Shown piece by piece: positions 8,026 to 55,370 of a DNA stretch of 64,000 bases; positions within the stretch are counted from its first letter, which is position 1, and each line of letters begins with the position of its first letter. The notes under the pieces are model-generated. The model was not told where the DNA came from and ran no database searches. It saw only the letters and a list, made by a program, of their open reading frames with translations. The stretch spans positions 4,069,501 to 4,133,500 of the forward strand of contig NZ_CP045201.1 of assembly GCF_014899185.1 (NCBI RefSeq), written 5' to 3'. A program made the position numbers and the translations under genes. The stretch is from Pseudooceanicola spongiae (GTDB lineage Bacteria > Pseudomonadota > Alphaproteobacteria > Rhodobacterales > Rhodobacteraceae).

Positions 8026-8037
8026 GGGTTCCTCCCT

Positions 8038-8097: not shown

Positions 8098-8123
8098 ACC
8101 TCTCTATCGTCAGGAAATCCGCC

Positions 8124-10654: not shown

Positions 10655-11663
10655 AACCGCCCTGTCCCCCGCCGCCACCCAGCGGCGCGACCCCCGCCAG
10701 ATCCCCGACCGCCTGACCACCCGAGGCCAGCGCGTGCTGAAGTCGTGGGAGGCGCTGTTGCTGCTGGTCGGCATCGCGATCTTCATCGCCAACTGCTTTG
10801 CCTCGCCCTATTTCCTGTCGCCGTGGAGCCTGTCGGACGCCACCTTCAACTTTACCGAAAAGGCGATGATCGCCTTCGCCATGGCACTGCTGATCATCTC
10901 GGGCGAGATTGACCTCTCGGTCGCGGCGATCATCGCACTGGCCTCTACCGCCATGGGCGCCGCGGCGACCGCAGGCTTCGGCACGCCGGTTCTGGTCGGC
11001 ATCGGCCTTGGCACGGGGCTGCTTTGCGGCGTGTTCAACGGCGTCCTCGTGACCCGCCTCGGTCTGCCCTCCATCGTTGTCACCATCGGCACGATGAGCC
11101 TGTTTCGCGGCCTCTCCTATATCGTGCTGGGCGACGGCGCCTATCGCGGCTACCCCGAGAGCTTCGCCTTCTTCGGGCAGGGCTACGTCTTCTGGGTGGT
11201 GTCGTTCGAGTTCGTGCTGTTCGCCGTCCTCGCCGTGATCTTCACCGTGCTGCTGCACAAGACCAACTTCGGGCGGGCGGTGTTTTCCATCGGCAACAAC
11301 GCCACCGCCTCGCTGTTTTCGGGCGTGCGGGTGCCGCGGGTCAAGATGATGCTGTTCCTGCTGACTGGCGTGATGAGCGGCGTTGCCGCGATCTGTCTGA
11401 CCTCGCGCCTCGGCTCGACCCGCCCCTCGATCGGGCTGGGGATGGAGCTGGAGGTCGTCACCATGGTCGTGCTCGGTGGTGTCAGCATCCTTGGCGGCTC
11501 AGGCTCGATCCCCGGCGTGGTCATCGCGGCCTTTGTGCTGGGTCTGCTGACCTTTGGCCTTGGGTTGCTGAACGTGCCCGGCATCGTCATCTCGATCTTC
11601 ACCGGCGCGCTGCTGATCGGCGTCATCGCCCTGCCGCGCCTTATTCAGAAATGGAGGGGCTGA
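10641..11663 (+). CDS. rhaQ: Rhamnose ABC transporter permease 2
   Basis: A 340-residue RbsC-family membrane permease and partner of RhaP, with the conserved [17 protein letters not shown] segment near the C-terminus. The ATG at 10641 is placed 8 bases after a GGAG and preferred to the ATG at 10635, which is too close to it. Its TGA shares a base with the rhaU ATG, so the operon is translationally coupled throughout. Confidence 0.91.
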
Positions 11664-40294: not shown

Positions 40295-40760
40295 CAGGTC
40301 ATCTCGATGAATGGTGACGGCGAACCCTACTAGGACGAAAGTAATACGTCTCGGTAGGGTAGATGCCGTGACATGGGCTCGAAGCCGCCATGTGGCGGCG
40401 CGGCATGAAGACCGCGGTCCCACACCGCCTCGGCGATGACAACATCCGGCGGCAGCAAGCCCTTTCGCGACGCCCCTGCGAAGCGCAGCATGCCGCGTGG
40501 GGCCGACACTAAGAAAGCAACTAAGGGCTGCACAAGGCTAGGTTCATCCCTGCCCCAAGGAAGCGACTCCTCCTGTTCACTGGTGAATCTTAAGGAAAAG
40601 CACAGTTCTGCATACTATAAATATTGATGAACTGTCAGCGTTTCAGGCGGTTGTTCAGTTCGAGGAAGATCACTATCATCAGGTCAACTGCGAAATAATT
40701 TATATCTTCCAGTGGCGAGGCGATTTCGCGGGGCGATAGTATAGACGAGAGAGACAGATC
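40295..40760. other. Intergenic region before the methyltransferase cassette
   Basis: No gene seen. Composition becomes AT-rich after about 40560, where the promoter of the following three-gene cassette should lie (for example around GCATACTATAAATATTGATG at 40610-40629). No terminator with a clear stem and U-tract was noticed. Confidence 0.4.
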
Positions 40761-41909
40761 TTGACGAGGTTAGAGCAATTTGCTTCAAAAGAAGCACTAC
40801 CAAAAAAGCCAACATCTCGAGAGCCTAAAGTTGTAGACCTTTTTTCAGGGGCTGGAGGCTTTTCGCTAGGGGCACGTAATGCGGGTGCTCAAGTCGCATT
40901 TGCGGTAGAGTTTGACAAATTCGCAGCAGCTACCTACCGTAATAACCTATGTAGAGATGGCAAAACTACGCTCTACACCGAAGATATTGTTGAGCTGGAT
41001 GCGAATGCTCTGGCCGAGAAGCATTTTCCAAATGGTTCAGAGTGCGACATTCTTTTAGGCGGACCGCCCTGTCAGGGCTTTTCTACCCATCGAATAAATA
41101 ATGCGGGTGTGAACGACCCTCGAAACACCCTGATTTATCGATACTTCGACTTCGTAAGGGCCTTACGTCCAAGGGCTTTCTTGTTGGAAAATGTGCCCGG
41201 GCTACTCTGGCCCAGGCATAAAGAGTATCTGGAAAAATTCTATCAACTTGCAGCGGATGAGGGGTACACTGTTTTTGCGCCATCAACGCTCGATGCTAGA
41301 AATTTTGGTGTGCCGCAACGAAGAAAGAGAGTTTTTATTCTGGGCATCTGCAAGCGAAGACTGACACCATCTTTGAATTGGCCGCTGAAACCGTCCCATT
41401 CAGAAACAAGTCAAGATCCGGAAAAAAAGTGGATCTCATGCCAAGATGCTTTCTTGCCAGCAACTTTGGGTGACCCTAACGACCTGCACATGAACCACAA
41501 TGAAGAACTGATCGGAGCGTTCAAGAACACGCCTCCAAATGGCGGTTCAAGACGGGACTCTGGCCGCACTCTTCCCTGTCACAAGAACCATGACGGGCAC
41601 AAAGACGTCTATGGTCGGATAGACCCGCGGGTTCCAGCTCCCACAATGACAACTGCATGCATCAACCCTTCGAAAGGTCGCTTTGTTCATCCAACTGAGC
41701 ACCATGGGATCACTGTGCGCCAAGCGGCGCGCCTCCAAACATTTCCGGACGATTTTGTGTTCGAAGGGGGCTTGACCGCAGCAGGAAAGCAAATAGGCAA
41801 TGCGGTTCCAGTGAAAATGGCAGAAGCATTGATAAATCATCTAGTTTCGATGGTTTGCCCAGTAACTGAGCCAGCATGCCTACCGGTCCATAATGAGCAA
41901 AAATCATGA
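40761..41909 (+). CDS. DNA (cytosine-5-)-methyltransferase of the conflict cassette
   Basis: A 382-residue C5 methylase with motifs in order: VVDLFSGAGGFSLGA (SAM binding), LLGGPPCQGFST (catalytic Cys), FLLENVPGL, FGVPQRRKRVF and the C-terminal QIGNAVPVKMAEAL. The target-recognition region lies at about residues 200-290. The recognition sequence is unknown. The start is a TTG at 40761, with no ATG upstream of motif I. Its stop overlaps the next ATG (ATGA), so it is coupled to the GHKL protein. GC is clearly lower than the flanking genes, a sign of transfer. No restriction endonuclease is recognisable. Confidence 0.93.
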   Translation: MTRLEQFASKEALPKKPTSREPKVVDLFSGAGGFSLGARNAGAQVAFAVEFDKFAAATYRNNLCRDGKTTLYTEDIVELDANALAEKHFPNGSECDILLGGPPCQGFSTHRINNAGVNDPRNTLIYRYFDFVRALRPRAFLLENVPGLLWPRHKEYLEKFYQLAADEGYTVFAPSTLDARNFGVPQRRKRVFILGICKRRLTPSLNWPLKPSHSETSQDPEKKWISCQDAFLPATLGDPNDLHMNHNEELIGAFKNTPPNGGSRRDSGRTLPCHKNHDGHKDVYGRIDPRVPAPTMTTACINPSKGRFVHPTEHHGITVRQAARLQTFPDDFVFEGGLTAAGKQIGNAVPVKMAEALINHLVSMVCPVTEPACLPVHNEQKS

Positions 41910-44890
41910 AACGTTCCGGCTTCAAGACAAGAGCTAGGACCGTCGACCATTTGGGCAGAGAACAGGTCGCTGATTGCCCAACCGCAATTTCGGAACTTTG
42001 GAAAAATGCGTTTGATGCATATGCGACAGACGTTATCCTGGACATTTTCGACGAGAAATCTCCGATAGCCGTGGTTTCAGACAATGGCCACGGAATGAAT
42101 CTATCCGAATTTCAAGATCGATGGCTGGTCATTGGGACTGAATCCAAGGCGACGGGAGACAAAGTACCAAAGGCTGATCGAAAAGGTCTTCAGGAAAGGG
42201 TTAAGCAAGGTCAGAAAGGCATTGGCCGGCTGTCGTGTGCCAATCTGGGGCCTATACTGCTACTAGTCTCTAAACGCTCTGGTGAAAAATTCGTCGTTTC
42301 TTTGGTTGACTGGCGATTATTCGAAAACCCATTCCTAAACCTTTCTGACATTTTTTTTCCGACTGTCGAAGTCTCCGGTCTCGAACATGCCTTTGAACGC
42401 CTTCCAAGCATGATCGAGGAGCTTGTCCAAAATATTGAGCCGAACAGCAGGCCAGTCTTGGACGACTCTGACACAGAGTATGATGATGCGAACAGAATTG
42501 CAGAGGCTTGGAACGATTTCGACAATCTTCCAGAACGTTCCGGAGGTGTGACTTCGAAGTCGATAGTTAAGAGCATCCGAGAGCTGAGTTTCTCGTTTCA
42601 CCACCTGTCCGGATGGGCCGTCGCTCAAGGAACTGCAGATAGCGGTACCGCTCTCTTGGTTTCGGGTATCAACTACGACTTGCAATCTCAACTTCTATCA
42701 CCGCCCTTCAAGCAGTCGGTTGCCAGAACACGTAAGAATTTCAGAGAAACTTTGGCTAGTTTTCTTGACCCATTCGTTGATGCAGATGATCAGACACTTC
42801 CTGATTATTTTTCGGATTTTTCCTATCAGGTGCGCATCTGGAAAGATGATGTATCAAAGACGATTGTTGGCCGTGAAATCGGCATCTCTCGCCGTGACGT
42901 TTCACAGTTGGAGCACTGCATTATTGGTAGCGTGGACATCGAAGGTGTTTTCCGTGGGCGTATAAAAGCTTGGGGAAAATGGCTCCCCGACCAAGTCAAA
43001 ATACTTCCAGCGACTGATGTTCAGATCCCTACCAGAGCAGATACAAGACTTGGAAATTTCGAGCTTTTCATCGCGGCCATGGAATTTGACTACAAAAACT
43101 CGACCCACGAAAAGGCGGAACATGACAGATTCAGAGAGATAGCCGAACTGTACGCAGGCTTCATGATATTCAGGGATGGTTTGCGCGTACTGCCATATGG
43201 CCGCAGTGGCGATGATTTCTTTGAGATTGATGATCGTCGATCAAGGCATGCAGGTCGTGAATTCTGGAACCATCGCCGGATGTTCGGACGTATCGGAATT
43301 ACTCGTGCTGGCAACCCAAACCTGAAAGACAAAGCCGGTCGCGAAGGAGTCATAGACAACCGCGCAGCAAAAGCTCTAAAAGATGTCGTAGTCAATCTCC
43401 TCATGCAGTCGGCACGGAAGTATTTCGGTACTGATGCACCAATCAGAAAAGAGCTGCTACCGGATGTAGTGGCAAACAAAAAGCAAGCACGCGACGCAGA
43501 AGCTCGGCGCAAACTGAGCGATAAGAATAAGAAGACTTTTGCACGCAACCTCAAAGAGGGCCTTGAGGCTCTCCCTGATTTGCTGGGCCGGCTGGAGTGC
43601 GCAGCGAAGGACCTGACTATCAAAAACGACGCTGATGTAGCGGATAAACAAGAGCTCATTTCTGCATTTCGAGACCAACTTCCGCCAGCGACAATTCCAG
43701 GCGCGCCTCGTTCAATGTCACCACGTCAACAAGAGAATTATTCGGCCTATCGCTCTCAAGCTTCTCAAGCGCGAAATCTTTATGCCAGTGTCTCCAGAGC
43801 TGTCGATGACGAGGTTGAAAGGTTCAGACCTTCGGACCCACTTTCAGTTTTACAAAGCCAGGTAGAGAAGTCCCGGAACAGAATTTCAGCTCGAGTCAAT
43901 CACTGGCAAAAGCTTGTTCGGACACTTCAAACTGATGAATTCAAGAGAATCCTTGATCTGTCTGATCAAAGAAAAACACTGTTTAAAGCTGAGGCTGAAG
44001 CCGTGCTGCAACTATTCAAAGCCGAGCGAGAAACCTTCTCCTCGGCATCAGCAAAGCTGACAAAGATCGATCGCGACATTTCAGAACAGAATGAGGACAT
44101 TTTTGAACCGTATGTACGCGCTCTTGAAGGGCTGAAAGAGAGTATTGATCTTGAGCACCTTGCTACACACGGCATGGAGGAACTCGCGGAAGCAAGAGTT
44201 GAGCTCGAGAGGCTCAACAGCCTAGCGCAACTCGGCATAGCGGTGGAGATCACCGGACATGACTTGCAAGACTTTGATGATATCATTGCCTCTGGCCTTC
44301 GGGCGCTTCCTTCTGAACTTTCGCAAACAAAGGCAGTTCGAGATATAACACTTGGCTACGAAGGATTGACGGATCAACTTCGCTATCTTTCACCACTCAG
44401 ATTATCCGGAATCAAGATTGAGAGATGGATTACTGGCGCTGAGATTCAAGATTATATTCATGATTTTTTCGCCCCAAGCTTTAAGAAAAACCAGATCGAC
44501 TTTCGGGCCACTGAAATCTTTCGTGGCTTCAGAGTCTTTGATCAACCTTCGAGGTTATTCCCTGTGTTTATCAACTTGGTGAACAACAGCATCTACTGGG
44601 TTGGTACCAGCCGAAGTGCCGAGCGCACAATTTTATTTGACGTTAATTCTGAGAAAATCGTTGTCGCCGATAGCGGGCCGGGTGTAGCAACTGAAGATAT
44701 CGAAAACCTCTTCAAACTCTTTTTCACAAGAAAAATTCAAGGGGGAAGGGGTGTCGGACTTTACCTCGCTAAAGCTAATCTGGTCTCTGGCGGGCACTCT
44801 ATTTCGTATGCCCGAGACGATAGCAACCAGCTACTTGCGGGCGCAAACTTTGTTATAGACTTGAATGGGGCTGAATTTAAAAATGGCTGA
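41906..44890 (+). CDS. MORC/MutL-like GHKL ATPase fused to a histidine-kinase-like module
   Basis: A 994-residue protein. Residues 1-120 form an Hsp90/MutL/MORC-type GHKL ATPase: E30 and N34 in SELWKNAFDAY, SDNGHGM (58-64), WLVIGTESK (73-81) and GQKGIGRLSC (102-111). Residues about 410-500 (FRDGLRVLPYG, REFWNHRRMFG) resemble the S5-like domain of this class. A long helical/coiled region follows (about 510-740). The C-terminus has a dimerisation-like segment (EITGHDLQDFDDII), an N box (FINLVNNSIYW), ADSGPGV, the FKLFFTRK segment and GRGVGLYLAK, as in sensor kinases. It overlaps both neighbours, implying fixed stoichiometry. Confidence 0.85.
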   Translation: MKRSGFKTRARTVDHLGREQVADCPTAISELWKNAFDAYATDVILDIFDEKSPIAVVSDNGHGMNLSEFQDRWLVIGTESKATGDKVPKADRKGLQERVKQGQKGIGRLSCANLGPILLLVSKRSGEKFVVSLVDWRLFENPFLNLSDIFFPTVEVSGLEHAFERLPSMIEELVQNIEPNSRPVLDDSDTEYDDANRIAEAWNDFDNLPERSGGVTSKSIVKSIRELSFSFHHLSGWAVAQGTADSGTALLVSGINYDLQSQLLSPPFKQSVARTRKNFRETLASFLDPFVDADDQTLPDYFSDFSYQVRIWKDDVSKTIVGREIGISRRDVSQLEHCIIGSVDIEGVFRGRIKAWGKWLPDQVKILPATDVQIPTRADTRLGNFELFIAAMEFDYKNSTHEKAEHDRFREIAELYAGFMIFRDGLRVLPYGRSGDDFFEIDDRRSRHAGREFWNHRRMFGRIGITRAGNPNLKDKAGREGVIDNRAAKALKDVVVNLLMQSARKYFGTDAPIRKELLPDVVANKKQARDAEARRKLSDKNKKTFARNLKEGLEALPDLLGRLECAAKDLTIKNDADVADKQELISAFRDQLPPATIPGAPRSMSPRQQENYSAYRSQASQARNLYASVSRAVDDEVERFRPSDPLSVLQSQVEKSRNRISARVNHWQKLVRTLQTDEFKRILDLSDQRKTLFKAEAEAVLQLFKAERETFSSASAKLTKIDRDISEQNEDIFEPYVRALEGLKESIDLEHLATHGMEELAEARVELERLNSLAQLGIAVEITGHDLQDFDDIIASGLRALPSELSQTKAVRDITLGYEGLTDQLRYLSPLRLSGIKIERWITGAEIQDYIHDFFAPSFKKNQIDFRATEIFRGFRVFDQPSRLFPVFINLVNNSIYWVGTSRSAERTILFDVNSEKIVVADSGPGVATEDIENLFKLFFTRKIQGGRGVGLYLAKANLVSGGHSISYARDDSNQLLAGANFVIDLNGAEFKNG

Positions 44891-46649
44891 GGGATTCGAG
44901 AGCTTCATTGAAGATGCATTTATTGATCCAATCCGGTCGGTTGTAATTGTTGATGATGACTATCCCACGATCGAAGAGGTTTTGAATTCTAATGTCGAGG
45001 GTGAAGGTAAAGTTACAAAGACTGATAGCCAAAAAGGCTGGGTAAAAAACCCCCGACAGGTACTGGAGGTAGTCAGCGAATTTCGTTCCAAAGAGAAGAA
45101 GTACATACTCGACATTCACGACGCCCAGAACCTTACTGACGATCAAGAAGTTGAGGGTGCGGCCCACCTCCATCAGACTGATTTGTTAGTTTTGGACTAC
45201 CAACTTGATCCCGAGAATGTTGAAGACCATACACGCTCCCTTCGGATTGCGCGCAAACTCTTTGCTAGCGATCACTTCAATCTAATCATCGTCAATACCA
45301 ATAAAGATCTTAACGAGGTATTTGAAAATTTTTTAATTGGGCTGCTAGAGAGGGATTGTTTGCCAGCCCTTTCGGAAGAAGCCAGCGCTAGGGTCGAGGA
45401 AGCATACGAAAAAAATGACATCCCAGATAGTTTTTCGGATGGCTTGAGGAAGGCTGTGGGGTTTCGACAATTTATTTCGGTGGTACAAGATTGTAAAAAT
45501 ATTTCTCACGTGATGTCGGGAAAATCTGAGTTTGCGGCGCTGTCTAAACTCTTTGCAGATTCAGGGTTGCCAAAAAAATATTGGATCAGTATCGCAATGT
45601 CTGCAATCCTATCCTATCAGGAGAAAATAGCTGACCAGATGAGCGTTGGAAGCTGTGGAGTATCTAGTTTCCGCGATTCAGGCAATGTGAAGTGGATTCG
45701 ATCTGATCGTGGCTTCATCACATTTTCAGACAAGAAGGCAAAGAGGCCGCTGCTGGATGCTTTACGCGCAGCGCTAGCTGACTGGAAGCCGAGACCCTCG
45801 CGTCTTTTATTGGCTAAGATGTCAGCTGATATCGAAAATCAAGGTGTCGAAATGCAAGATCGTGCCCTTGCCGACAATCATTCATCCGCACTTTGGTTTA
45901 AAGATTTGCTGCTTTCCAATGAATTAGAGCGAAAATCGGCCATAGACGGTACAGTCAGACGGCACATTGAGGCCATGGTCGCTGAAGTGCTTCCAGGGGT
46001 TCGAGCTTTTGCTGAGAGGCTTGTTGCGTCTCAAAGACAAGATCTGGAAGCGGACAACATTTCTATTGTCAAGAGTCATTACCAAGTTGATCTCTCTAAA
46101 ATGGAACAACTTCAGAAGGCTCAATTGTTCCATAATGCCCTAACTTGTAGCGAGGACGTGTCTGGGTGGCATATCCAGACGGGTCATGTTTTCGAAGCCG
46201 CCGGGGAAACCTGGATTTGTGTCTCACCGTTGTGCGACACTGTCCCTGCTCAAATTTCCAATAATAATATCCAGCTGCACGGAGATAGACTTAGATTTAG
46301 CGCAATCAAGCTGCATTCGAAAAATTCGAACAAGATGCCCAAGAACGTTCAAAGCAATCAGTTCTTATTCTTTAATTCTGAACATGGCATATCAGTCTTC
46401 TCGATTGTTGTGAGTCCGGATGCCATGCCGGAGACGGAGGTTTTCTATGCCGAGAACAAAGGCATCTTTCACGACGGCTTTAAATTCACGATATGCCGTT
46501 CTGAAGTGAACCGAAACTCTAACGAGCTCGGCATGGTCAGCCACTCTACTGAGGTTAGTTACCAGCTTAGGTACGAGTATGCACAAAATCTTGTCCAACG
46601 TCTTGGAGGGGCGGTGACAAGGATCGGACTTAATTTCGCTGGCAACTAA
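44883..46649 (+). CDS. Receiver-like domain protein with unassigned C-terminal region
   Basis: A 588-residue protein. The N-terminal 150 residues look like a divergent response-regulator receiver: hydrophobic strand plus acidic cluster VVIVDDDYP (D24-D26), likely phosphoacceptor D105 in LLVLDYQLD, and LIIVNTNK (134-141). Insertions make it longer than a classical receiver. The remaining 430 residues match nothing I recognise; one conserved-looking stretch is GETWICVSPLCD. The ATG overlaps the upstream stop by 8 bases; an in-frame ATG at 44865 is possible. It is the natural partner of the kinase-like protein and could be the effector. Confidence 0.78.
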   Translation: MAEGFESFIEDAFIDPIRSVVIVDDDYPTIEEVLNSNVEGEGKVTKTDSQKGWVKNPRQVLEVVSEFRSKEKKYILDIHDAQNLTDDQEVEGAAHLHQTDLLVLDYQLDPENVEDHTRSLRIARKLFASDHFNLIIVNTNKDLNEVFENFLIGLLERDCLPALSEEASARVEEAYEKNDIPDSFSDGLRKAVGFRQFISVVQDCKNISHVMSGKSEFAALSKLFADSGLPKKYWISIAMSAILSYQEKIADQMSVGSCGVSSFRDSGNVKWIRSDRGFITFSDKKAKRPLLDALRAALADWKPRPSRLLLAKMSADIENQGVEMQDRALADNHSSALWFKDLLLSNELERKSAIDGTVRRHIEAMVAEVLPGVRAFAERLVASQRQDLEADNISIVKSHYQVDLSKMEQLQKAQLFHNALTCSEDVSGWHIQTGHVFEAAGETWICVSPLCDTVPAQISNNNIQLHGDRLRFSAIKLHSKNSNKMPKNVQSNQFLFFNSEHGISVFSIVVSPDAMPETEVFYAENKGIFHDGFKFTICRSEVNRNSNELGMVSHSTEVSYQLRYEYAQNLVQRLGGAVTRIGLNFAGN

Positions 46650-47212
46650 AGCGTCTAAATGAGCCCTTTGGAAGCTATTTTTTTGAATAGACTGGTATCA
46701 GTTTTTTTCGCAGGCAGCGAATGGCAGCTATGGCGCGCCGCATCGACGTATTTAGAGTATTTCATGAACGGCAGATCAGGGCCGTTCACTCCACTTACGC
46801 TCGGCCCGGCAACAAATTTGCGAGGTCCGCTTCCTGAGCATCTCTGCCGGTCAAGCAGCCTGCAGCATCACCTAGCGCCGCGTCAACGCGCCGAGCATCA
46901 GCTTTTGGGAAGTTGGTCTTGGGATCTCACGGCAGCAGCATAGCTATCGCTGCGCCAGGCAAGAAGGTCGCGAAAGGGCTGCAACCGGTCATGCGCGGCG
47001 TCTTGCACGAATGGCGGCTCTGCGCCGGAAGTGTCGAACATGCTGGTCGTAGCGCCCCCGGGCGGAACGGCAGCTACCTGAGCACCTCTGCCTTTCGCGC
47101 CAGGCGTTACTAAGGACAGCTATCTTAGCCACGTCGATGGATGTAAATGGTGATCTCCGACATTTAGTCACGCGTGAGGCCGAGATTTCGTGCTGGAGCG
47201 CACGGCTGAAAG
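46650..47212. other. Intergenic region between conflict cassette and prophage remnant
   Basis: No supported gene. It contains degenerate repeat sequence (46935-46981 and following) related to an inverted copy at 57922-57968. Composition shifts back to high GC across it. Confidence 0.45.
46935..46981 (+). repeat. 47-bp dispersed repeat, copy 1
   Basis: Matches the reverse complement of 57922-57968 at 44 of 47 positions (shared core CGAAGGTCGCGAAAGGGCTG, with one base differing here). Weaker similarity extends on both sides. The two copies bracket 10.9 kb that includes the prophage remnant. Confidence 0.75.
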
Positions 47213-49075
47213 CTAAGTGATCAAATTTGACCAGTGTCGATTCAGGCCTTCAACTACCGTCTTCTGCGTTGCTGGTACTTTTGCAGCTTCAGAGAGCTCG
47301 GCGCAGTTCGCCCTGACCAGTGCCTCGGCGAGGGGCGGGCACACGCTGTTCCCGCAGCAGCTGACCTGGACGTCTTTGGTGAAGGGCCGGAACTCCCAAG
47401 CCCCGTCGGTTTCCTGCCAGTGGCCGTCGATCACGTAGTCTGGCGGAAAGCCTTGGGCGTTGAACAGCTCGCGCGGGGTGAGCATGCGCAGGCCGATATC
47501 GGTGATGACGTAGGTGGCGCCATCGATCTCCATAGTGACGACATCGCCGCCGTCCCAGACGCCATGGGCCCGGAGGAACTCGGCCACGGCGTGGGCGCGG
47601 GGCGCGTGGGCTTCGGTGAACGGCGGCACCTGCAAAGCCGCCTGAACATGCGCCATGCGATCCTTGACGGTGATCGTGTGGCAGGGCGCGTTGGTCCGGG
47701 CGCCGTCTCCGGTGCCGTAGTATTTGGCGAAGAAGGATGCCACGGGCTGCTGAGCCAGCGTAGGGATGATGACGGCGTTCTGATCCTTGCGGCTCGCACA
47801 GATTGTGGAATGGGGCAGGGTCGCCGGGCGGCAGGCGCCGCCGTGCTGGGCATAGGTCAGCACCGGTGCGATCAGCGCGCTGTGACCGCCGCCGGCCAGA
47901 ACGGTCGGATGCGGGGCCGTGACCGCGCTGTCGCGCCGGGCTGTGCCCTTGAGCGACATGAGCGACGGCGCAAGCAGACCCAGCGGGGCCGCGCCGCCGG
48001 GGCGTTTGATCCAGCTGTTGGCGGTGATCGTCGGCGCCGGGGCGCGCAGGTCGGATCCTGTGGCGCCGCCGTTGAACCGGGTCAGACTGGGGACCACGAG
48101 GGCCTTTTCGCCCCGATGCGCTCCGGTAATGGTGCGCAGGGGCTCGGCGAGATCTTCGATCCGCCCGCCGTGGGTGAGGTTGACCAGGAAGGGGCGCTCG
48201 GCGTCCAGCACATAGCGTTTCATGCCGCGCGCGATGCGGGCCAGCGTGTTGGCAGCCAGAGGGCGCTTGGCCCGCAGGCCATGCTTCGCCATGACCTCGG
48301 CACTGCTGTCGAAGATCGAGGGACATGGCAGCGACCAGTCGATGCACTCAGCCGCCGCACGCCATGGTTGCAGCTGACCTGACATCACCTCGGCGCTGTC
48401 GGGCGCGCCGTGCGTCGGCGCGGGCCAGACGATGGGCTTGCCGTCAAAGCGGATGATGACAAACAGACGCTTGCGGATGGTCGGGGCGCCGTAGTCACAA
48501 CCACGCAGCTCGCGCGTCTGCATCTTGCCGCCGAGGCGTCGGATCTCCTTTTGCCACGCCCGAAAGGTCTCGCCACGCCGGTCAGGGCAGGGCATCAACC
48601 CGCACGGCGTTTCCACCAGCGGCCCCCAGTCCTTCCACTCCTCGACGTTTTCCATGATCACGACATCGACCCGGCCACCCTTGCGCTGCAGGCGGTCGAT
48701 CCACCCCGGAATGATCCAGGCGAGGTCGCGGATGTTGCGCTCGACCGGCTTGCCGCCCTTGGCCTTGGAGAAGTGCTTGCAGTCGGGGCTGAACCACATC
48801 AGCCCGATGTGACGGCCTTGCATGTGATCCAGAGGATCGACCCGGAAGACGTTCTCGGAGAGGTGCAGGGTGTCAGGGTGGTTCGCGGCATGCAGCGCCA
48901 GCGCGGCGGCGTTGTGGTTGATGGCGATGTCGGGACTGCGCCCAAGGGCAAGCTCTATGCCAGTGCTGGCCCCGCCGCCGCCCGCGAAGCTGTCGACGAT
49001 CAGCGGGCGGGGATCGGAGTACACCGGGACAGGTGAGGGGTCCGCCAGAATGCCGAAGAGGTCGGAGCCATCCAT
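47213..49075 (-). CDS. Prophage-type DNA (cytosine-5-)-methyltransferase
   Basis: A 620-residue C5 methylase. Motif I is IVDSFAGGGGASTGIELAL and the catalytic loop is WFSPDCKHFSKAKGG (PDC replaces the usual PPC, as often in phage enzymes). Then come IMENVEEW and RKRLFVIIRF, an unusually long target-recognition region (about 270-500), and CGNSVCPPLAEALV at the end. Phages use such enzymes to hide their DNA from host restriction. Its start overlaps the stop of the GapR-like gene. Confidence 0.9.
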   Translation of the reverse strand: MDGSDLFGILADPSPVPVYSDPRPLIVDSFAGGGGASTGIELALGRSPDIAINHNAAALALHAANHPDTLHLSENVFRVDPLDHMQGRHIGLMWFSPDCKHFSKAKGGKPVERNIRDLAWIIPGWIDRLQRKGGRVDVVIMENVEEWKDWGPLVETPCGLMPCPDRRGETFRAWQKEIRRLGGKMQTRELRGCDYGAPTIRKRLFVIIRFDGKPIVWPAPTHGAPDSAEVMSGQLQPWRAAAECIDWSLPCPSIFDSSAEVMAKHGLRAKRPLAANTLARIARGMKRYVLDAERPFLVNLTHGGRIEDLAEPLRTITGAHRGEKALVVPSLTRFNGGATGSDLRAPAPTITANSWIKRPGGAAPLGLLAPSLMSLKGTARRDSAVTAPHPTVLAGGGHSALIAPVLTYAQHGGACRPATLPHSTICASRKDQNAVIIPTLAQQPVASFFAKYYGTGDGARTNAPCHTITVKDRMAHVQAALQVPPFTEAHAPRAHAVAEFLRAHGVWDGGDVVTMEIDGATYVITDIGLRMLTPRELFNAQGFPPDYVIDGHWQETDGAWEFRPFTKDVQVSCCGNSVCPPLAEALVRANCAELSEAAKVPATQKTVVEGLNRHWSNLIT

Positions 49076-49380
49076 CAGGCCATCCCCAGGGCTTCTTTGT
49101 ACATCTCCAGCACCGCCTCTTCCTCGGCGATGTCGTCGGGCTCGCGCTTGCGCAGGGCGATGACGCGCCGGATGATCTTGGTGTCGTAGCCGCGGCCTTT
49201 GGCTTCGGCGAAGACCTCCTTTTGCTGGTCGGCGAGGTCTTTCTTCTCGGCCGCCAGCCGCTCTATGCGTTCGATGAAAGCGCGCAACTCGGCGCCAGTG
49301 ACGCGGAAGGCGCTATCGCGGACGGCCTTGTCGGCCTCGGTCTCTTTCATCGGCGTCTTGCCGGTGGGGTGGTCAGACAT
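49075..49380 (-). CDS. GapR-like DUF2312 nucleoid-associated protein
   Basis: A 101-residue protein matching the DUF2312/GapR family: a helical coiled-coil N-part (LRAFIERIERLAAEKKDLAD) and a basic C-part (KIIRRVIALRKREPDD). GapR clamps overtwisted DNA ahead of replication and transcription forks in Caulobacter. Phage copies are common. The ATG at 49380 has AAAGGGA upstream. The frame remains open upstream without a stop (see 49381-49560). Confidence 0.85.
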   Translation of the reverse strand: MSDHPTGKTPMKETEADKAVRDSAFRVTGAELRAFIERIERLAAEKKDLADQQKEVFAEAKGRGYDTKIIRRVIALRKREPDDIAEEEAVLEMYKEALGMA

Positions 49381-49560
49381 GGGGTGTCCCTTTGGTGCGG
49401 GGTAAATGGCGCAATCGAGCTTGGCGCAGGCATCGCGCTGGCCTGCGGCGTTGGCTGGGCCGTAGACGGTGGGCGCTTCAGCAGCGGCCCACGCTGCTAT
49501 GGCGACAACCGCGCCGATGGCAGCAACCTTGAGCCAGGTGGGGGCGGGTGCTTCGGACAT
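49381..49560 (-). other. In-frame upstream extension with a membrane helix
   Basis: An ATG at 49560 with a strong AGGAG site opens 60 codons that read straight into the GapR-like gene. The encoded segment has one hydrophobic helix (WLKVAAIGAVVAIAAWAAAE). Either a 161-residue membrane-anchored form is made, or this is a small membrane protein gene fused by loss of its stop. Confidence 0.45.
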
Positions 49561-49568
49561 GACGGCTC

Positions 49569-49847
49569 CTAGCGCGGGGCTGCGATCTTGCCGGTCCAGA
49601 CGTCGAACTCGGTGATCAGGATGTTGAACCTGACGAGGGCCTGCACGTCGCTGTGCAGGTCGGCCCGGCTGAGAATGTTGCACTGATCCCGCAACCAAGC
49701 AGAGGTGACGTCCTCGGTGAAAAAGCTGACGCTGTAGCCGCATTGCTGCGCGGCGAAACGCTGGAAGCGCGAATCCTTAAAGAGCAAGGCCGCCTGCGTC
49801 CCGGCGGGCAAATCCGCGAAGGCGGGGCGTCTGGCTGTGCGGGTCAT
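49569..49847 (-). CDS. Hypothetical prophage protein
   Basis: A 92-residue protein without a recognised domain, containing a Cys and several aromatic residues (QRFAAQQCGYSVSFF). The chosen ATG at 49847 overlaps the stop of the upstream small gene (ATGA), supporting translation. It lies within the leftward early operon. Confidence 0.6.
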   Translation of the reverse strand: MTRTARRPAFADLPAGTQAALLFKDSRFQRFAAQQCGYSVSFFTEDVTSAWLRDQCNILSRADLHSDVQALVRFNILITEFDVWTGKIAAPR

Positions 49848-50047
49848 GTCTGCGCCCCGACAATCGCGGACAGCAGCGGACTCACGATGAGCCGCCAAAC
49901 TGCGAAGCCAGTGCCGTAGAACAGCATCAGGCTGGCCAGCACGATGAGGATGCGCTGCGAGCGGACCGAGCGGCGGGCAAGGGCGTTCAGCGTCCGCTGC
50001 CATAGTGACGATGTTGTCGATGTCGTGCTGATCGGGTGGCCGGACAT
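49844..50047 (-). CDS. Small membrane protein of the prophage remnant
   Basis: A 67-residue protein with a basic N-part and one or two hydrophobic stretches (ILIVLASLMLFYGTGFAVW, then LIVSPLLSAIVG). Coupled by an ATGA overlap to the next gene. Function unknown; small early phage membrane proteins are common. Confidence 0.55.
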   Translation of the reverse strand: MSGHPISTTSTTSSLWQRTLNALARRSVRSQRILIVLASLMLFYGTGFAVWRLIVSPLLSAIVGAQT

Positions 50048-50133
50048 AGGGATCCCCATCGGCCAGCAGGACATGCGGCCGTCAGCGCTGAAGTGCGCTG
50101 GTTGAAAATGATGGATGGAAGAAGCGCCGGGGC

Positions 50134-50406
50134 TTACGCCTCGGCTGATGCGCCTTCGAAGGTGATCTTGTGCGCGGTCCGCTTCCAGGCGCGGAAGGCG
50201 TCGGCCTCGTCGCGCCCGGAGGCGCTGATGCCATGCAGGCTGATCTCGAACAGGTGGAGCGCGTGAGGCGTTTCGGGCGGCGCGTCATAGCGACCCCCGG
50301 TCTCCACGATCTCGCTGACCAACGCGTCGCGCTGACCGGCGGTATCGAGGCATTCGAGGTTGGTCAGGAATGCGGCCAAGCGGTTGTGCAGGGCATCAAG
50401 GGTCAT
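50134..50406 (-). CDS. Hypothetical prophage protein
   Basis: A 90-residue acidic protein, probably helical, without a recognised domain. Its start overlaps the upstream stop (ATGA at 50403-50406), supporting the call. Part of the leftward early operon. Confidence 0.6.
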   Translation of the reverse strand: MTLDALHNRLAAFLTNLECLDTAGQRDALVSEIVETGGRYDAPPETPHALHLFEISLHGISASGRDEADAFRAWKRTAHKITFEGASAEA

Positions 50407-50711
50407 GCTGGGCCTCCGCTCGTCCGCCGCGCGATGATCTCGGCGAGGCGCTGCTGGGTGCGCTGGCAATGCGGCTGGATCTGTTCTGCGACGGTGCCGA
50501 CGGCTGGCATGGCTTGGCCGAGGGTACGCCCACGGGCGGCGCTGGTTTGATCGTGCAGCGGCGTCAGGCGGGCGAGGCGCTCGGGGTCGATCTCTTGTCC
50601 ACGGGCGGCCTTGGCGGATGCCCAGTTTGCCGCTCTGGCGGCTGGGGAGCGCGCGATCAAGTTGGTGGTGCAGATGTGGGCGTAGTAGTCGGTGAGGGTA
50701 GGGGGATGCAT
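50403..50711 (-). CDS. Hypothetical prophage protein, first gene of leftward early operon
   Basis: A 102-residue protein rich in Ala and Arg with no recognised domain. The start at 50711 has GGAG six bases upstream; an ATG at 50723 is possible. It is immediately downstream of two repressor operators, so it should be shut off by the repressor at 50930. Confidence 0.58.
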   Translation of the reverse strand: MHPPTLTDYYAHICTTNLIARSPAARAANWASAKAARGQEIDPERLARLTPLHDQTSAARGRTLGQAMPAVGTVAEQIQPHCQRTQQRLAEIIARRTSGGPA

Positions 50712-50746
50712 GTGGATCTCCATCAGGTCGATGGGAACCTTTCGTA

Positions 50747-50793
50747 ATCCGAAAAAATCGGATAGGCAACAAGTAAATCCGATAATATCAGAT
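50747..50793. promoter_or_regulatory. Prophage operators O1 and O2
   Basis: O1 at 50747-50763 is ATCCGA-AAAAA-TCGGAT. O2 at 50777-50793 is ATCCGA-TAATA-TCAGAT. Both share the 6-5-6 layout of the sites at 51292-51339. They are 30 bases apart (about three helical turns), just upstream of the leftward early operon. Confidence 0.8.
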
Positions 50794-50929
50794 AGCCTAT
50801 TTGAAGCGAAGTCTTGTCACCAAACAGTCCTGCGGGGATCAAACCATGAACGAAGAGCAAGTAGGATGGTGCTAGCGATTCTCCACGCTTTGCGACGTCT
50901 GGGTCTTAATGTTAATTGGATAGGTGACT

Positions 50930-51289
50930 TCAGGACGGCTCTCGTTCACCAAGAGCAGCTAACAGCTCCATCTGAACATTCGAAGGAAGCTGAGGCAGAT
51001 CACCGTGCAGGATGAAATTGAAATCGATCCTAAAAGACCTGTAAAAATAGCGCATTAGCTTAACTGAAGGTCGACCGGAAAGCACCTGAGAGTTGAGTGT
51101 GGTCGGTGAGAGGCCCAAGTGTGCTGCTATTTCCTTCTGCGCCATACCACTGACCTTCTCGGCCGCCTTAAGGCGGCGAGAGATGGCTTCATCAGAGGTA
51201 TCGCCAGTACGAGCAAGACGTTCTCGCGCTTCCGGATCGTTGGAAATTGGGGCTCTTTTCATGAGGTAACTCATACCCCGGAAGTCCAT
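50930..51289 (-). CDS. XRE-type prophage repressor
   Basis: A 119-residue protein with an XRE helix-turn-helix (MAQKEIAAHLGLSPTTLNSQ, about residues 51-70). It is the likely lysogeny repressor. The start is uncertain: ATG at 51289 is used because upstream ATGs (51322, 51355) would place the operators inside the gene; 51274 and 51262 are also possible. It lies between two operator pairs, consistent with self-regulation and control of the early genes. Confidence 0.72.
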   Translation of the reverse strand: MDFRGMSYLMKRAPISNDPEARERLARTGDTSDEAISRRLKAAEKVSGMAQKEIAAHLGLSPTTLNSQVLSGRPSVKLMRYFYRSFRIDFNFILHGDLPQLPSNVQMELLAALGEREPS

Positions 51290-51291
51290 CA

Positions 51292-51339
51292 AACCGAAGA
51301 TCTCGGATCGAAAAGCTTGCATATCCGATATTATCGGAT
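51292..51339. promoter_or_regulatory. Prophage operators O3 and O4
   Basis: O3 at 51323-51339 is the perfect palindrome ATCCGA-TATTA-TCGGAT. O4 at 51292-51308 is AACCGA-AGATC-TCGGAT. They lie between the repressor gene and the rightward Cro-like gene, 31 bases apart, and would control both. Confidence 0.8.
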
Positions 51340-51353
51340 TATTGGCGTTATTC

Positions 51354-51599
51354 ATGACAGAAAATGTTCGTGAGATGCTGAGAACTATGGGCGGTTTTCG
51401 ACACATGGCCCTGAGAGTTGGATTGGCTGCGGCGACGTTGCACAGCGACATGATGGCAAACGTCCTGCGAGCGAAGTTTTACTTTGCCTTTCGGGATTTC
51501 GTTACCGAGCTGGGCTGCGTTTCTCCCTCGCCGGATTTGTTCGGCTTCGCTGCCCCTCTTCGTTCCGCGTGTGTAGGTGAGGAGTGTGACGTCGTATGA
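51354..51599 (+). CDS. Candidate Cro-like small regulator
   Basis: An 81-residue protein divergent from the repressor, starting 15 bases after operator O3. The segment MLRTMGGFRHMALRVGLAAA then TLHSDMMANVLRAKFY loosely fits the fold of small Cro/YdaS-like DNA-binding proteins. No ribosome binding site is evident. The position is the strongest argument. Confidence 0.42.
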   Translation: MTENVREMLRTMGGFRHMALRVGLAAATLHSDMMANVLRAKFYFAFRDFVTELGCVSPSPDLFGFAAPLRSACVGEECDVV

Positions 51600-51761
51600 C
51601 GCATTCATTCGGCCTTTTCTCCGCGCTGCCGTGCTGCCCGAGACACGATACAGAGTCGCGAGCATACCCACCTCTTTCTTACCCTTTCACCGTCCGCTTT
51701 GAGCTCCGTTCTGCCCGAATGGGCTTCATCTGTCCCGCGAAACCGTCAGGAGAGTTTCCCC

Positions 51762-52259
51762 ATGCGTAATGTGCGCCCTGCGTCGATCCAGTCGGCGGTC
51801 CAGTCCTCGATGCGAGCGGGCGGCGGCCTAGAGGCCGTCGCCAATGACCTCGGCGTCGGGGTGTCGACGTTGTCCCACGGCACCGAGTTGTCCGAACAGC
51901 GCCCCGGCGGGTTGGGTGTGAACTACCTTGACCGGCTCGGGCGGATCTCGCCAAAGGCTGCCGTGCCGATCGCTCAGCACTTTGCGGCGCTTGGCGGCGG
52001 GGTGTTCCATCCGCTGGAGGTCGAGGGGCGGCTGGCCTCGGACATCCACCAGATCACGCGCGATTTCTCGGACGTGTTGCAGCGCCATGGCGAAGCGCAT
52101 TCGCCGAGTTCGGAGAACCCGAACGATTACACCCCGAAAGAGGCGATGGCGCAGGTGGTCGAGCTGGACCAGATGGTTTGCGCCGCGATGAACTTCCGCG
52201 CGGCTCTGCTGCAGAAGGCGGGCGTCTCCGTGGTGCCAGCACAGACGCGCGCGCAATGA
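51762..52259 (+). CDS. CII-like prophage regulatory protein
   Basis: A 165-residue protein resembling the phage CII/CP76-type regulatory family. An N-terminal helix-turn-helix-like segment (GGLEAVANDLGVGVSTLSHG) is followed by a region with ISPKAAVPIAQHFAALGGGVF. CAGGAGAG precedes the ATG. First of a rightward run of early genes. Confidence 0.6.
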   Translation: MRNVRPASIQSAVQSSMRAGGGLEAVANDLGVGVSTLSHGTELSEQRPGGLGVNYLDRLGRISPKAAVPIAQHFAALGGGVFHPLEVEGRLASDIHQITRDFSDVLQRHGEAHSPSSENPNDYTPKEAMAQVVELDQMVCAAMNFRAALLQKAGVSVVPAQTRAQ

Positions 52260-52287
52260 CGCGGGGCCAGATTTTGGAGGTGCCGGC

Positions 52288-52827
52288 ATGGACATCCTGA
52301 CCGAAGAAGAGCGCCGTTTGATCGACGAGGCTCTGGCGCGGATTCCCGAGGAAGCGCGTCGCGTCCCAACGGGCGTCAGCGGGATGGATCCCGACTATGT
52401 CTGGGATCCGAAAACCCAGCGGATCATCACGCGCAACGAGGTCTTCGCTGGCGGCTATCGGACGATGACCCTGCGCAACGTCCGCAGCCCCGAGGATCGG
52501 ATGAAGGATCGCGAGATCTCTCTCGATATCCGCGACGGTTTGAGCATCGGAGAAATCTCCCTGCTGCGCCACACCAGCCGCGAGCGCATCCAGCGTGTGG
52601 CACGCGAGTACGGGATCGAGGTGGCGCGTGCCAAGCCAGCGCCGCGCCAAAAGACCGCCTCGGGCAATGACGACGATATCACGCGCAAGATCCTGACCTT
52701 CGTGGATGGGGAGCGCGGCCTGACCGAGATCGCCCGGTTGGCGGGGTGTCACAAGGACGCGGTGAGGCTGCGGCGTGACCGGCTGGGGCTCAATATCCCG
52801 GCAGCCATCCGGGGGCAGGCGGCATGA
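52288..52827 (+). CDS. Prophage DNA-binding-type protein
   Basis: A 179-residue protein with two helix-turn-helix-like segments: LSIGEISLLRHTSRERIQRV about mid-protein and LTEIARLAGCHKDAVRLRRD near the C-terminus. No named family recognised. It lies between the CII-like and replication-type genes; TTTTGGAGG precedes the ATG. Confidence 0.62.
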   Translation: MDILTEEERRLIDEALARIPEEARRVPTGVSGMDPDYVWDPKTQRIITRNEVFAGGYRTMTLRNVRSPEDRMKDREISLDIRDGLSIGEISLLRHTSRERIQRVAREYGIEVARAKPAPRQKTASGNDDDITRKILTFVDGERGLTEIARLAGCHKDAVRLRRDRLGLNIPAAIRGQAA

Positions 52828-52940
52828 GTGCAGAGATGGACCACGCCCCCGAAGCGGGCTCTTGCGCCGCCAGGTGCCGGGCGCCGCCCCCGCTAGGGGC
52901 TGAGCGCACAGAGCACTGTGGGGGCCGCTCAAGCGGCTGA
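52824..52940 (+). CDS. Possible small prophage protein
   Basis: A 38-residue frame whose ATG overlaps the preceding stop (ATGA). It carries three Cys (SCAARC and HCGG). No known family. Support comes only from the overlap and the short gap to the next gene. Confidence 0.3.
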   Translation: MSAEMDHAPEAGSCAARCRAPPPLGAERTEHCGGRSSG

Positions 52941-53027
52941 TCTCACACCATGAAACTCGCCGCGCGGAGTGCGCGGAGTTGATGCGGCCTTGGCCCGTCG
53001 ACGCAATTGGGCTGCCCGGAGGACACC

Positions 53028-53750
53028 ATGAACACTACAGCCATGACGAAAGACGCCGCGACAGAACCGGAGCCGGAAGACGGCTTCACGGTCCCCGAGG
53101 GCTACCTGCTGATCGCCCCCGCCGACTGGGAGCGCCAGCGCTGGCACTGGCTGAAGGGCGTGCGCCGCGATGGCGGTCCGGGCAGGCTCAGCCCGATGGC
53201 CCGGCTGGTGGCGCATGCCCTGGCGCTGGATTTCGCGCACCATCTTACGGCGCGCTGTGATCCGCTGTTCAGCCACCTCACCTCGGCCGTCGGGGCCTCA
53301 GCGGCGACCGTGAAGCGGGCTCTGGCAGAGCTTGAAGCGGCCTGCTGGATCGTGCGCGATTCCGGGCGCGGCAAGGGGCGGCAAAGTCGCTTCGGCTTCC
53401 TGACGCGGCCCCGGATTGCGCCGCTGAAAGGAGGTGGCTCGACCCCTCCGAAATCGCGCAGAAATGAGCCATCAAAGGCCCGCGAAAAGGCTCAGAATTG
53501 TAGCTCTTCTGGCTCAGATATGAGCCATCCCTATAATAAGGATAAACCATATAAGAACCATAAGGGGCGCGAGGGTGCGCGCGAGCTCTCTCAAAATCCG
53601 ATGGTTCGCAAGCGGGCCGAGGACGCTGTGCGCAGCTTTCGAGGGGGTCGCTCCGAAGCCTTCGCCGAGCTTCCCCGCTACGTCTTGAACCACATCATCG
53701 CCGCAGACCTGCTGACGCCGCTCGAGCTTCAGACGTCGGGTATTTTCTGA
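53028..53750 (+). CDS. Prophage winged-helix replication-type protein
   Basis: A 240-residue protein. Residues about 45-120 form a winged helix (LTSAVGASAATVKRALAELE) like that at the N-terminus of phage replication initiators. A polar, probably disordered linker follows, then a basic C-part. GGAGG precedes the ATG. It would be the origin-binding or initiator protein of the element (inference). Confidence 0.62.
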   Translation: MNTTAMTKDAATEPEPEDGFTVPEGYLLIAPADWERQRWHWLKGVRRDGGPGRLSPMARLVAHALALDFAHHLTARCDPLFSHLTSAVGASAATVKRALAELEAACWIVRDSGRGKGRQSRFGFLTRPRIAPLKGGGSTPPKSRRNEPSKAREKAQNCSSSGSDMSHPYNKDKPYKNHKGREGARELSQNPMVRKRAEDAVRSFRGGRSEAFAELPRYVLNHIIAADLLTPLELQTSGIF

Positions 53751-53767
53751 GAATGGAGGCGCTGGCC

Positions 53768-54358
53768 ATGACCGAGGATCTCAAGATCGAAACCAAGCGC
53801 GACCGGGTGCGTCGCCTGCTGCTGACACCGATGGCCGAGCTCGGCTTTCGCTTTCCCAAGGCGGTCAGCGCCGAGGACGGCCAGCGAAAGCTGGACCGCA
53901 TTGCGGATGACCTGGCCTACATGGCCGATGACCGCCTGCAGCTGCGGATGCTGCCTGTGCTGCGGACCAAGGGTCAGGGCAGTGCTCGGAACTTCTGGCC
54001 GGATCACGCGACCTTCATCGCCTATGCCCAGATCGCCCAGCCGCGCCCGCTTAGCGAGATGCCGGGCATTGCCAGCTGGTTCGGCAGCGTTGCGGGGCAG
54101 CAGGCTCTGGACGGCGGCCGCCTTGTCGCCGAGTTCCGGTTCTGGCTGGAGAAGAACAGACCCCCGCAGGGCGAGGCCGAGAAGCGCCGTGTCGCCTCCA
54201 AGGGCGCAGAAGATCAGAGCCGCGTGACGCGGATCCGCGAACGGCTGAGCCACAACCTCGCTGTCGATATCATTGATCGCGGCTGGCTCGCCGAGTTCGA
54301 ACAATCCGAAGCGCGGGCCATGGCCCTGGTCGACGCCAAGCGGGGAGAAGTGGCATGA
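53768..54358 (+). CDS. Hypothetical prophage early protein
   Basis: A 196-residue, charged, mostly helical protein without a recognised domain. The ATG at 53768 is preceded by GGAGG; an ATG at 53753 is possible. Overlaps the next gene by ATGA. By position a replication-associated role is plausible but unproven. Confidence 0.62.
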   Translation: MTEDLKIETKRDRVRRLLLTPMAELGFRFPKAVSAEDGQRKLDRIADDLAYMADDRLQLRMLPVLRTKGQGSARNFWPDHATFIAYAQIAQPRPLSEMPGIASWFGSVAGQQALDGGRLVAEFRFWLEKNRPPQGEAEKRRVASKGAEDQSRVTRIRERLSHNLAVDIIDRGWLAEFEQSEARAMALVDAKRGEVA

Positions 54359-55017
54359 CGATGCAGATGCCGATCCGGGCGACACGGCGCAGCCACGACA
54401 TGCGCGAGGTCTCGATCCTCCAGCTGATCGAATGGGCCTTCCAGCGCGAGAAGGTGCGCATCGACTTCGAGCAGGGCACCCAGCACCGCCCGCAAGGCGC
54501 GCTCAAGGGCTACGGCATGGAGCACATCCTGATGCGCCAGGCAGAGCTTGGCTGCCGTGTCGATGGCGGTGGCACATCTGAGCCGCACCCGGACGCCGAC
54601 GCTGTCGCTGACGCGCTGGCGGTCCTGCCCGAGGGCCACGGCGGCCAACGCATGGCGATGCGCATCGGAGAGCTTGCAAGGGCAGGGCAGGTGCCCAGCT
54701 GGCACATCCCCGAGAAGACCCGCGTCGTGCCCTGCGAGTGGCGCACCACCAAGCACGGCACCTTCGCGCAGACCGAAAGCGCCGGGATGCTCAGCTACAT
54801 GAGCCGGGGCAAACTCCGCGAGGTCGAGGTCAAATACTGCCCGATCACCATCCAGAACCATCCGGGCGATGCGGCTGCTCTGCGCAGGGAATATCTCGGC
54901 TGGTGGGGTGCTCTGCTGGAGCTGCGGGACACCTTCCGGATCTACGGTGGGCTGACGTCCTATGTGGTGACGGAGGCGATGCCACCTCGCACGCCATGGA
55001 AAGACGCGGCACGCTGA
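54355..55017 (+). CDS. Hypothetical prophage early protein
   Basis: A 220-residue protein with no recognised domain, containing the stretches LSYMSRGKLREVEVKYCPI and LGWWGALLELRD. Translationally coupled to the preceding gene (ATGA). Last clear gene of the remnant. Confidence 0.6.
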   Translation: MTMQMPIRATRRSHDMREVSILQLIEWAFQREKVRIDFEQGTQHRPQGALKGYGMEHILMRQAELGCRVDGGGTSEPHPDADAVADALAVLPEGHGGQRMAMRIGELARAGQVPSWHIPEKTRVVPCEWRTTKHGTFAQTESAGMLSYMSRGKLREVEVKYCPITIQNHPGDAAALRREYLGWWGALLELRDTFRIYGGLTSYVVTEAMPPRTPWKDAAR

Positions 55018-55136
55018 TCGCGAGCGGGTGGCCCCCAGTGGTGGGGGCTGCCGCCGTGGCGGAGGATCGGGCACTGCCCTGGGTGATCCGCCGCATAGGG
55101 GGGGGCTATCCGAAAATCTGGGCGAAGACACGTTGA
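54996..55136 (+). CDS. Possible small protein at the prophage end
   Basis: A 46-residue frame overlapping the previous gene by 22 bases. It has mixed hydrophobic and basic residues (WVIRRIGGGYPKIWAKTR). No family recognised; could be a truncated remnant. Confidence 0.3.
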   Translation: MERRGTLIASGWPPVVGAAAVAEDRALPWVIRRIGGGYPKIWAKTR

Positions 55137-55370
55137 CCGGTATGATAACAGTTGTTTTCGTGCGCGCTGAATTGGAGAAAAAAGCCCAATTTGGAACGGG
55201 TTAGCAGTGATAGGAAAGTGCGTTTGGCCAAGGTGCTGCAAGCTCCGCTGCGCTACCAGCTCCCACCATGCTTACCTTCGGATGCCGCGACCGAAAGTCG
55301 TAGCGTAATGTAATTGAAGCATCAAAATTAACCCGAGCGGCTGCTGCGCGGACTTTGCGGCCGGTTGATC

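Follow-up and report, generated by a model that had tools for sequence, protein, structure and literature searches.

The C5 methylase, the MORC-type ATPase-kinase and the receiver protein encoded by three overlapping genes of Pseudooceanicola spongiae travel as a unit. On sequence evidence this trio may represent a mobile defence cassette that is linked to methylation and in which a phosphorelay would run the restricting step, a reading to which a probability of about 0.45 is assigned. The identities of the proteins are near certain and a defence role, as judged from their sequences, is likely; the full phosphorelay-restriction scheme is held more tentatively, somewhere between doubtful and a little short of even odds. 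The trio lies within a window of 64,000 nucleotides, the whole stretch of DNA that was analysed, and its features are listed in Table 1. The methylase and kinase genes overlap by 4 bases, and the kinase and receiver genes by 8 bases if the third gene starts at its second ATG (44883, MAEGF...); the longest third ORF (44865-46649, + strand) runs from the first ATG, encodes 594 aa and extends this overlap to 26 bases. The ORFs thereby confirm the 4- and 8-base overlaps of the original prediction, and its statement that the trio is of lower GC than its surroundings is likewise correct, with 0.46-0.50 in the trio (1-kb windows) as opposed to 0.585-0.60 just to the left and 0.65-0.67 just to the right, the edges of the low-GC tract lying at about 40.6 and 46.8 kb. 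Pfam finds neither an endonuclease nor a helicase in the trio, as had been claimed. Imperfect inverted repeats flank the trio.

Table 1. Features of the trio, in positions of the window
Feature	Position	Strand	Basis
C5 cytosine DNA methyltransferase (protein 1, 382 aa, TTG start)	40761..41909	+	Pfam DNA_methylase PF00145, 4.5e-66; NCBIfam TIGR00675 dcm, 2.5e-52
MORC-type GHKL ATPase and histidine kinase fusion (protein 2, 994 aa)	41906..44890	+	Pfam HATPase_c_3, HEF_HK, HATPase_c; structure matches
N-terminal GHKL ATPase domain (residues 26-129)	41981..42292	+	HATPase_c_3, conserved residues
S5-like transducer region (residues 383-510), K476-A-G-R-E-G	43052..43435	+	Conservation; inside structure match
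Helical, coiled-coil-like long linker (residues 512-746)	43439..44143	+	Model secondary structure
HEF_HK dimerisation/phosphotransfer domain	44228..44401	+	PF19191; contains H785
C-terminal catalytic ATP-binding domain of histidine kinase (residues 881-984)	44546..44857	+	HATPase_c
Receiver protein (protein 3), second ATG, 588 aa	44883..46649	+	Response_reg_2 PF19192, 9.8e-17
Receiver domain, first part (residues 22-160): D30, D31, D106, T145	44928..45344	+	
Receiver domain, last strand and helix (residues 268-307), K290	45666..45785	+	Structure range 22-307
Output region (residues 308-594): helices, then beta-rich domain containing G440, C452, C457-D458, R586, G588	45786..46646	+	Conservation

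The fusion of a GHKL ATPase to a kinase, and the receiver next to it, are real and have kept their catalytic residues. Residues 10-514 of protein 2 match Morc3 and SMCHD1 in a structure search with an AlphaFold2 model (mean pLDDT 78.5, pTM 0.55), and a GHKL plus S5 ATPase module of MORC/paraMORC type is present. Across 22 protein 2 sequences the key residues of both ATP-binding sites, K476 and the putative phospho-acceptor His785 (codon 44258-44260; kept in 22/22) are invariant, and in the N-terminal GHKL domain the invariant positions are E30, N34, D59, G61, G63, K104, G105 and G107. The linker is the most variable of the six protein 2 segments compared (mean distance 0.93). HEF_HK is found at residues 775-832 with 24.0 bits against a PF19191 cut-off of 24.1, and with 26.1 bits in a second scan; this region is modelled with low confidence (pLDDT below 50 for residues 742-787). 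The PADLOC model 'REase_II' (PDLC03419) matches residues 11-128 with 1.4e-11, and the best NCBIfam match of protein 2 is BbrUII/HgiDII (NF050001) over the same residues with 2.3e-16. Enzymes of the BbrUII/HgiDII type are partnered by a C5 methylase. REase_II (1.4e-11, 8.1e-4) was rejected as evidence for a nuclease in the trio as its matches cover only the N-terminal ATPase domain, and identity with the BbrUII/HgiDII restriction enzyme was rejected on the same ground, its score of 59.5 bits lying far below the cut-off (550). The REase_II label reflects a match with the GHKL domain found in restriction enzymes of that kind. In common with type II restriction-modification systems the trio contains a DNA methyltransferase (Pfam); no nuclease recognisable by known profiles was found in it (Pfam, PADLOC, NCBIfam), and only Vsr recurs in more than three loci nearby. 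PHROGs families to which no function is assigned match proteins 2 and 3.

In protein 3, Response_reg_2 (PF19192) is found at residues 23-162 with 62.1 bits against a cut-off of 27, and no other Pfam family matches above its cut-off. An insertion of about 100 residues splits the receiver domain before K290, and residues 163-264 have a pLDDT below 50 in a structure model with a mean pLDDT of 66.5 and a pTM of 0.55. Invariant residues (22/22) are D30, D106, T145, G440, C457, D458 and G588, followed by D31 and R586 (21/22) and C452 (19/22); K290 is invariant in 14/14 close relatives and is not among the conserved columns of the wider set of 22. The trio thus has the residues expected of a two-component system, namely the phospho-acceptor His and the N and G boxes of the kinase, and the Asp pair, Asp, Thr and Lys of the receiver (Lys290 in the 14 close relatives). 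Response_reg_2 is the only Pfam family present in more than one of 17 receiver proteins, and neither a purine nucleoside phosphorylase (PNP) nor another known effector domain was found in protein 3 and its 16 relatives (Pfam); PADLOC has no model matching the protein at E up to 1. Solved relatives were found neither for protein 3 (best E 1.2 by sequence, 0.15 by profile) nor for its output half (best profile E 0.098), and Foldseek with the receiver model gave no match at 0.001 or better, the best (E 0.11) being a receiver domain; the structure alignment covered the receiver part only, residues 22-307. No nuclease, toxin or DNA-binding signature was found in the output domain, and a role of the receiver output as the restricting step thus gains no support.

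All three genes are present in 34/34 loci that are fully covered by their contig, the window included, so the grouping is not due to chance; the trio is co-conserved as a unit, and the original prediction is not refuted on this point. The survey comprised 36 loci, the window and 35 that were fetched for a relative of protein 3 or protein 2 and in which this one gene is hence present by construction; 34 were scored as the contigs of L041 and L044 begin in the receiver gene. Left out of the count were repeat contigs (L039, L045, L048, L049, L050, L072-L074), L056 (receiver in two frames), L061, L066 and L071 (cut inside the kinase), L046, L047, the E. coli loci and a short branch described below (L062-L065, L067-L070); three further HEF_HK loci (L095, L096, L098) lie outside the survey. 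The kinase gene directly precedes the receiver gene on one strand in all 34 loci, and the methylase gene is first in 26, last in five and on the other strand in three. Clustering of 298 neighbouring ORFs that lie within 5 kb and encode 100 residues or more revealed a Vsr-like cluster in 12/36 loci as the sole partner in more than three loci, three other clusters reaching three loci each; all eight of the 12 members given to Pfam are Vsr. The sensitivity of this clustering is limited, as it missed an annotated vsr gene of L020 and left out ORFs below 100 residues, and additional C5 methylases (L001, L027, L038 and the window) were counted as core. Since, at this length and distance, no separate partner gene other than Vsr recurs in more than three of the 36 loci, the effector most likely resides within the trio.

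Within the trio, the distances between kinases and receivers correlate at 0.94 over the 34 loci, and those of either protein with the methylase core at 0.71; the methylase of L036 is far from the methylases of its kinase relatives. This fits a tight kinase-receiver pair that would hold its methylase more loosely. A mirror-tree comparison of nine kinase and receiver segments with the target-recognition region of the methylase gave no clear co-variation, the largest partial r being 0.17 (kinase core; uncorrected permutation p 0.02), and shared sequence recognition thus gains no support. Scans of viral contigs with the kinase alignment yielded 25 loci, among which eight that are uncut or almost so (L062-L065, L067-L070) form a short branch with kinases of 695-796 residues that lack the long middle. 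A gene on the same strand follows the kinase in 7/8 of these, the exception being L064, on a contig that begins within the kinase. The gene upstream encodes an N6/N4 methylase in 5/7 loci (L062, L063, L065, L067, L069) and a C5 methylase in one (L068), and in L070 no methylase is adjacent. The checked ATP-site residues are kept in 7/7 short-branch kinases, and His785 and K476 each align in 6/7. The downstream proteins are receiver-like (hhalign 97.6% over 64 columns, a single comparison), and a group comparison of five of these seven shows that they share the G...P-CD motif of the output half (94% over 29 columns, again a single comparison). None of the seven receivers reaches the cut-off of Pfam's receiver model, and a scan of two of the kinases lists no HEF_HK. 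As a unit the short branch is new here, and its association with N6/N4 methylases is already partly known from a published neighbour network (PMC8011034). Should the phosphorelay-restriction reading hold, the signalling pair and not the methylase could be the core of the system, because the same device occurs next to methylases of two unrelated classes, C5 and N6/N4; this is a possibility at clearly less than even odds.

The distribution is patchy. PF19192 was found in 5/390 genomes of the order, 4/394 of the family and 11/398 of the phylum (own genome included), and HEF_HK in 4/385 genomes of the class. Protein 3 is matched by three of 72,556 plasmids, all of which carry the full trio, and by none of 50,697 phage records, four of which match parts of protein 2. 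No match came from a scan of viral contigs with one receiver, nor from two megablast runs against E. coli in which alleles of viral contigs served as queries. Among 5426 complete E. coli genomes one allele (at least 80% of the query) is present in 205 and a second in seven. The trio of E. coli DEC5E is located in a tRNA-Leu island together with genes for a phosphorothioated-DNA restriction enzyme, ArdC, MobH and an integrase, and the second allele sits among insertion sequences. The DEC5E trio thus lies in a genomic island, the setting in which the original prediction asked for a test, and such spread and context fit any mobile gene set.

The E. coli alleles also provide natural variants. All 205 genomes that match the methylase gene do so over at least 80% of its length with an identity of 99% or higher, and interruptions are seen in two or more of these copies (in HH97 and in a locus broken in both methylase and kinase). 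Ten loci with broken or partial-looking annotation, found among the matches listed (60 of 231, 60 of 205, 60 of 231 and 50 of 207) and not a full survey, were inspected. The kinase is in pieces next to an intact methylase in six, of which two pairs have proteins in common and could each stem from one event, and the receiver is in pieces in one. In HH97 the methylase is in two pieces while kinase and receiver are intact; methylase and kinase are both in pieces in another locus, and in the last one the methylase and most of the kinase are lost and the receiver is kept. An eleventh locus is a remnant in which nothing but the final 419 bases of the receiver gene is left. Genomes with 80% or more of the kinase gene number 206, as compared to 205 with any match to the methylase of this allele, and at least one kinase gene therefore occurs without this methylase. 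The proposal that methylation guards the host against the other two proteins gains no support from this genome and HH97. Breaks confined to a single gene hit the methylase once in eight cases, as against 1.6 predicted from its 20% of the coding length. A lethal guard-poison relation is thus not favoured by the E. coli breaks, some of which could be explained by sequencing or base-calling errors.

The trio had been put forward as a novel system; the association of kinase, receiver and C5 methylase was in fact published in 2021, when the kinase-receiver pair was predicted and found linked in 91.6% of cases in 644 regions (Bellieny-Rabelo et al. 2021, PMC8011034). That study noted C5 methylases upstream, Vsr genes and a paraMORC origin, listed N6/N4 methylases in the neighbour network and suggested a signalling role in controlling restriction-modification; the part of the paper available contains no functional test of the pair. 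An experimental test was not found either among the matches listed in the literature searched, which covered few subscription papers and no bioRxiv preprints. The window shows the same order of HATPase_c_3, HEF_HK and HATPase_c (group 1 of that study), the same adjacent receiver and a C5 methylase beside it, and differs from the published elements in no meaningful way; its neighbour cluster has no Vsr gene (ORFs of at least 100 residues).

Several other systems share parts with the trio. In BREX (PMC9122589), host and foreign DNA are also discriminated by methylation and PglZ is reported to be a nuclease, but PglZ, BrxC and BrxL were not found in the trio (Pfam). The paraMORC families described in restriction-modification have the N-terminal GHKL and S5 domains, the methylase and Vsr context and the patchy distribution in common with it (Iyer et al. 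2008, PMC2292703), whereas the trio lacks a recurrent helicase or nuclease partner and has its ATPase fused to a histidine kinase. VcSduA, a paraMORC3-type Shedu protein that defends against phage, likewise has an N-terminal GHKL ATPase, which is needed for its activity, but contains its own PD-(D/E)XK nuclease domain and, in the text available, is described with neither the receiver nor the kinase that the trio has (PMC12137116). In the three-gene defence family Detocs, a defensive two-component system, the effector described is a purine nucleoside phosphorylase (PMC11249213). The trio, unlike Detocs, has a methylase and a MORC module, and a PNP is what its receiver proteins lack. Kinase and receiver domains are found in Detocs as well.

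In the proposed mechanism the methylase would mark host DNA, and the MORC-type module would close on DNA without the mark and/or on a sign of infection. Closure would be relayed through the coiled coil to the kinase, leading to phosphorylation of His785 and then of receiver Asp106, and the phosphorylated receiver would free its output half (Cys457-Asp458, Arg586) to stop the phage or the cell. A second, infection-specific trigger would be more likely than missing methylation alone, since some E. coli seem to live with an unmodified chromosome. The specific form of this restriction by phosphorelay, in which the clamp reads the state of the DNA, the kinase converts it into a phosphate signal and the output half (Cys-Asp, Arg) restricts, is possible and rather doubtful. 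A modest chance is left to MORC-like silencing, whereby the clamp would trap and compact unmethylated foreign DNA, the phosphorelay would only time loading or release and the receiver would be an adaptor and not a toxin. The structural match to the ATPase modules of MORC and SMCHD1 speaks for it, as does the report that C. elegans MORC-1 entraps and condenses DNA (PMC8277788), but a common fold is no proof that the modelled module would act as a clamp. It is unlikely that the receiver is a regulator within a two-component system that tunes restriction-modification or other genes, along the lines suggested in 2021 (PMC8011034): the conserved active sites of kinase and receiver agree with that published proposal, but the 17 receivers have no known DNA-binding domain (Pfam), which also argues against the last gene being an ordinary regulator of unrelated genes, no endonuclease gene was seen to recur for it to regulate and the Pantoea trio stands between unrelated genes.

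Two further explanations are more improbable still. In a classical restriction-modification system with addiction, kinase and receiver would attack unmarked DNA and loss of the methylase would kill the host, and the joint presence of the three genes in all 34 covered loci, the near-complete methylase in the E. coli genomes that match it (at least two interrupted copies aside) and the six loci with a broken kinase beside an intact methylase would all follow; the split methylase of HH97, the surplus kinase genome, the share of breaks that fall in the methylase and the absence of a nuclease signature are difficult to reconcile with it. An epigenetic or housekeeping module carried on mobile elements and unrelated to defence has a similarly slim chance: no defence assay was found in the literature searched, and the genes were met by the 2021 authors in plant-infection transcriptomes (PMC8011034), but the patchy spread, the contexts in islands, plasmids and IMG/VR contigs and the different classes of methylase point away from housekeeping.

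Restriction by phosphorelay, if true, would amount to restriction-like immunity without an endonuclease gene, and to the first two-component system known to read DNA modification. The trio couples a clamp ATPase of chromatin type to bacterial phosphate signalling next to a DNA methylase, and is present in 205 plus seven of 5426 E. coli genomes and in scattered relatives across the phylum, yet its function is only predicted in the literature found. The parts list, the conserved residues and the natural variants of E. coli make it directly testable. If the phosphorelay does gate defence, the trio would show how a two-component system can read a mark on DNA, and the prokaryotic relatives of MORC would gain a defined output.

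The trio is flanked by imperfect inverted repeats, with a weaker pair close by, and to its right starts a GC-rich module, at whose edge it sits and which carries a second C5 methylase gene (Table). The module matches parts of four further sites in this genome, with identities of about 75-97%, and appears to be a repeated mobile element or the remnant of a prophage.

Features flanking the trio in the window
Feature	Position	Strand	Remark
Inverted repeats	40458-40489 / 46949-46980		32 nt, imperfect, 78% complementary
Second inverted-repeat pair	40376-40391 / 47011-47026		weaker
GC-rich module	47103-55205		
Second C5 methylase gene	47213-49075	-	inside module

Among the viral-contig loci of the short branch, in which the kinase lacks the long middle, L070 has a Peptidase_S24-like gene (7117-7794) upstream of the kinase-receiver pair in place of an adjacent methylase. 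In L064 (1-2920) the kinase gene lies at the start of the contig and has no adjacent downstream receiver gene because the next gene is on the opposite strand. In the phage PhiR44_1 (L046), whose gene names are P2-type, a gene annotated as ParaMORC3 faces one annotated as Dcm protein (7986-9944 and 9985-11136).

The receiver gene is itself broken into two frames in a further viral contig (L056:10885-12506), the kinase scores of which are identical to those of locus L055. In E. coli FORC_069 (L106:6039-6419) the receiver gene is reduced to its last 419 bases, with IS1 adjoining. Among the matches listed, the same stretch is present in at least seven E. coli genomes with such a remnant, two of which are named O104:H4.
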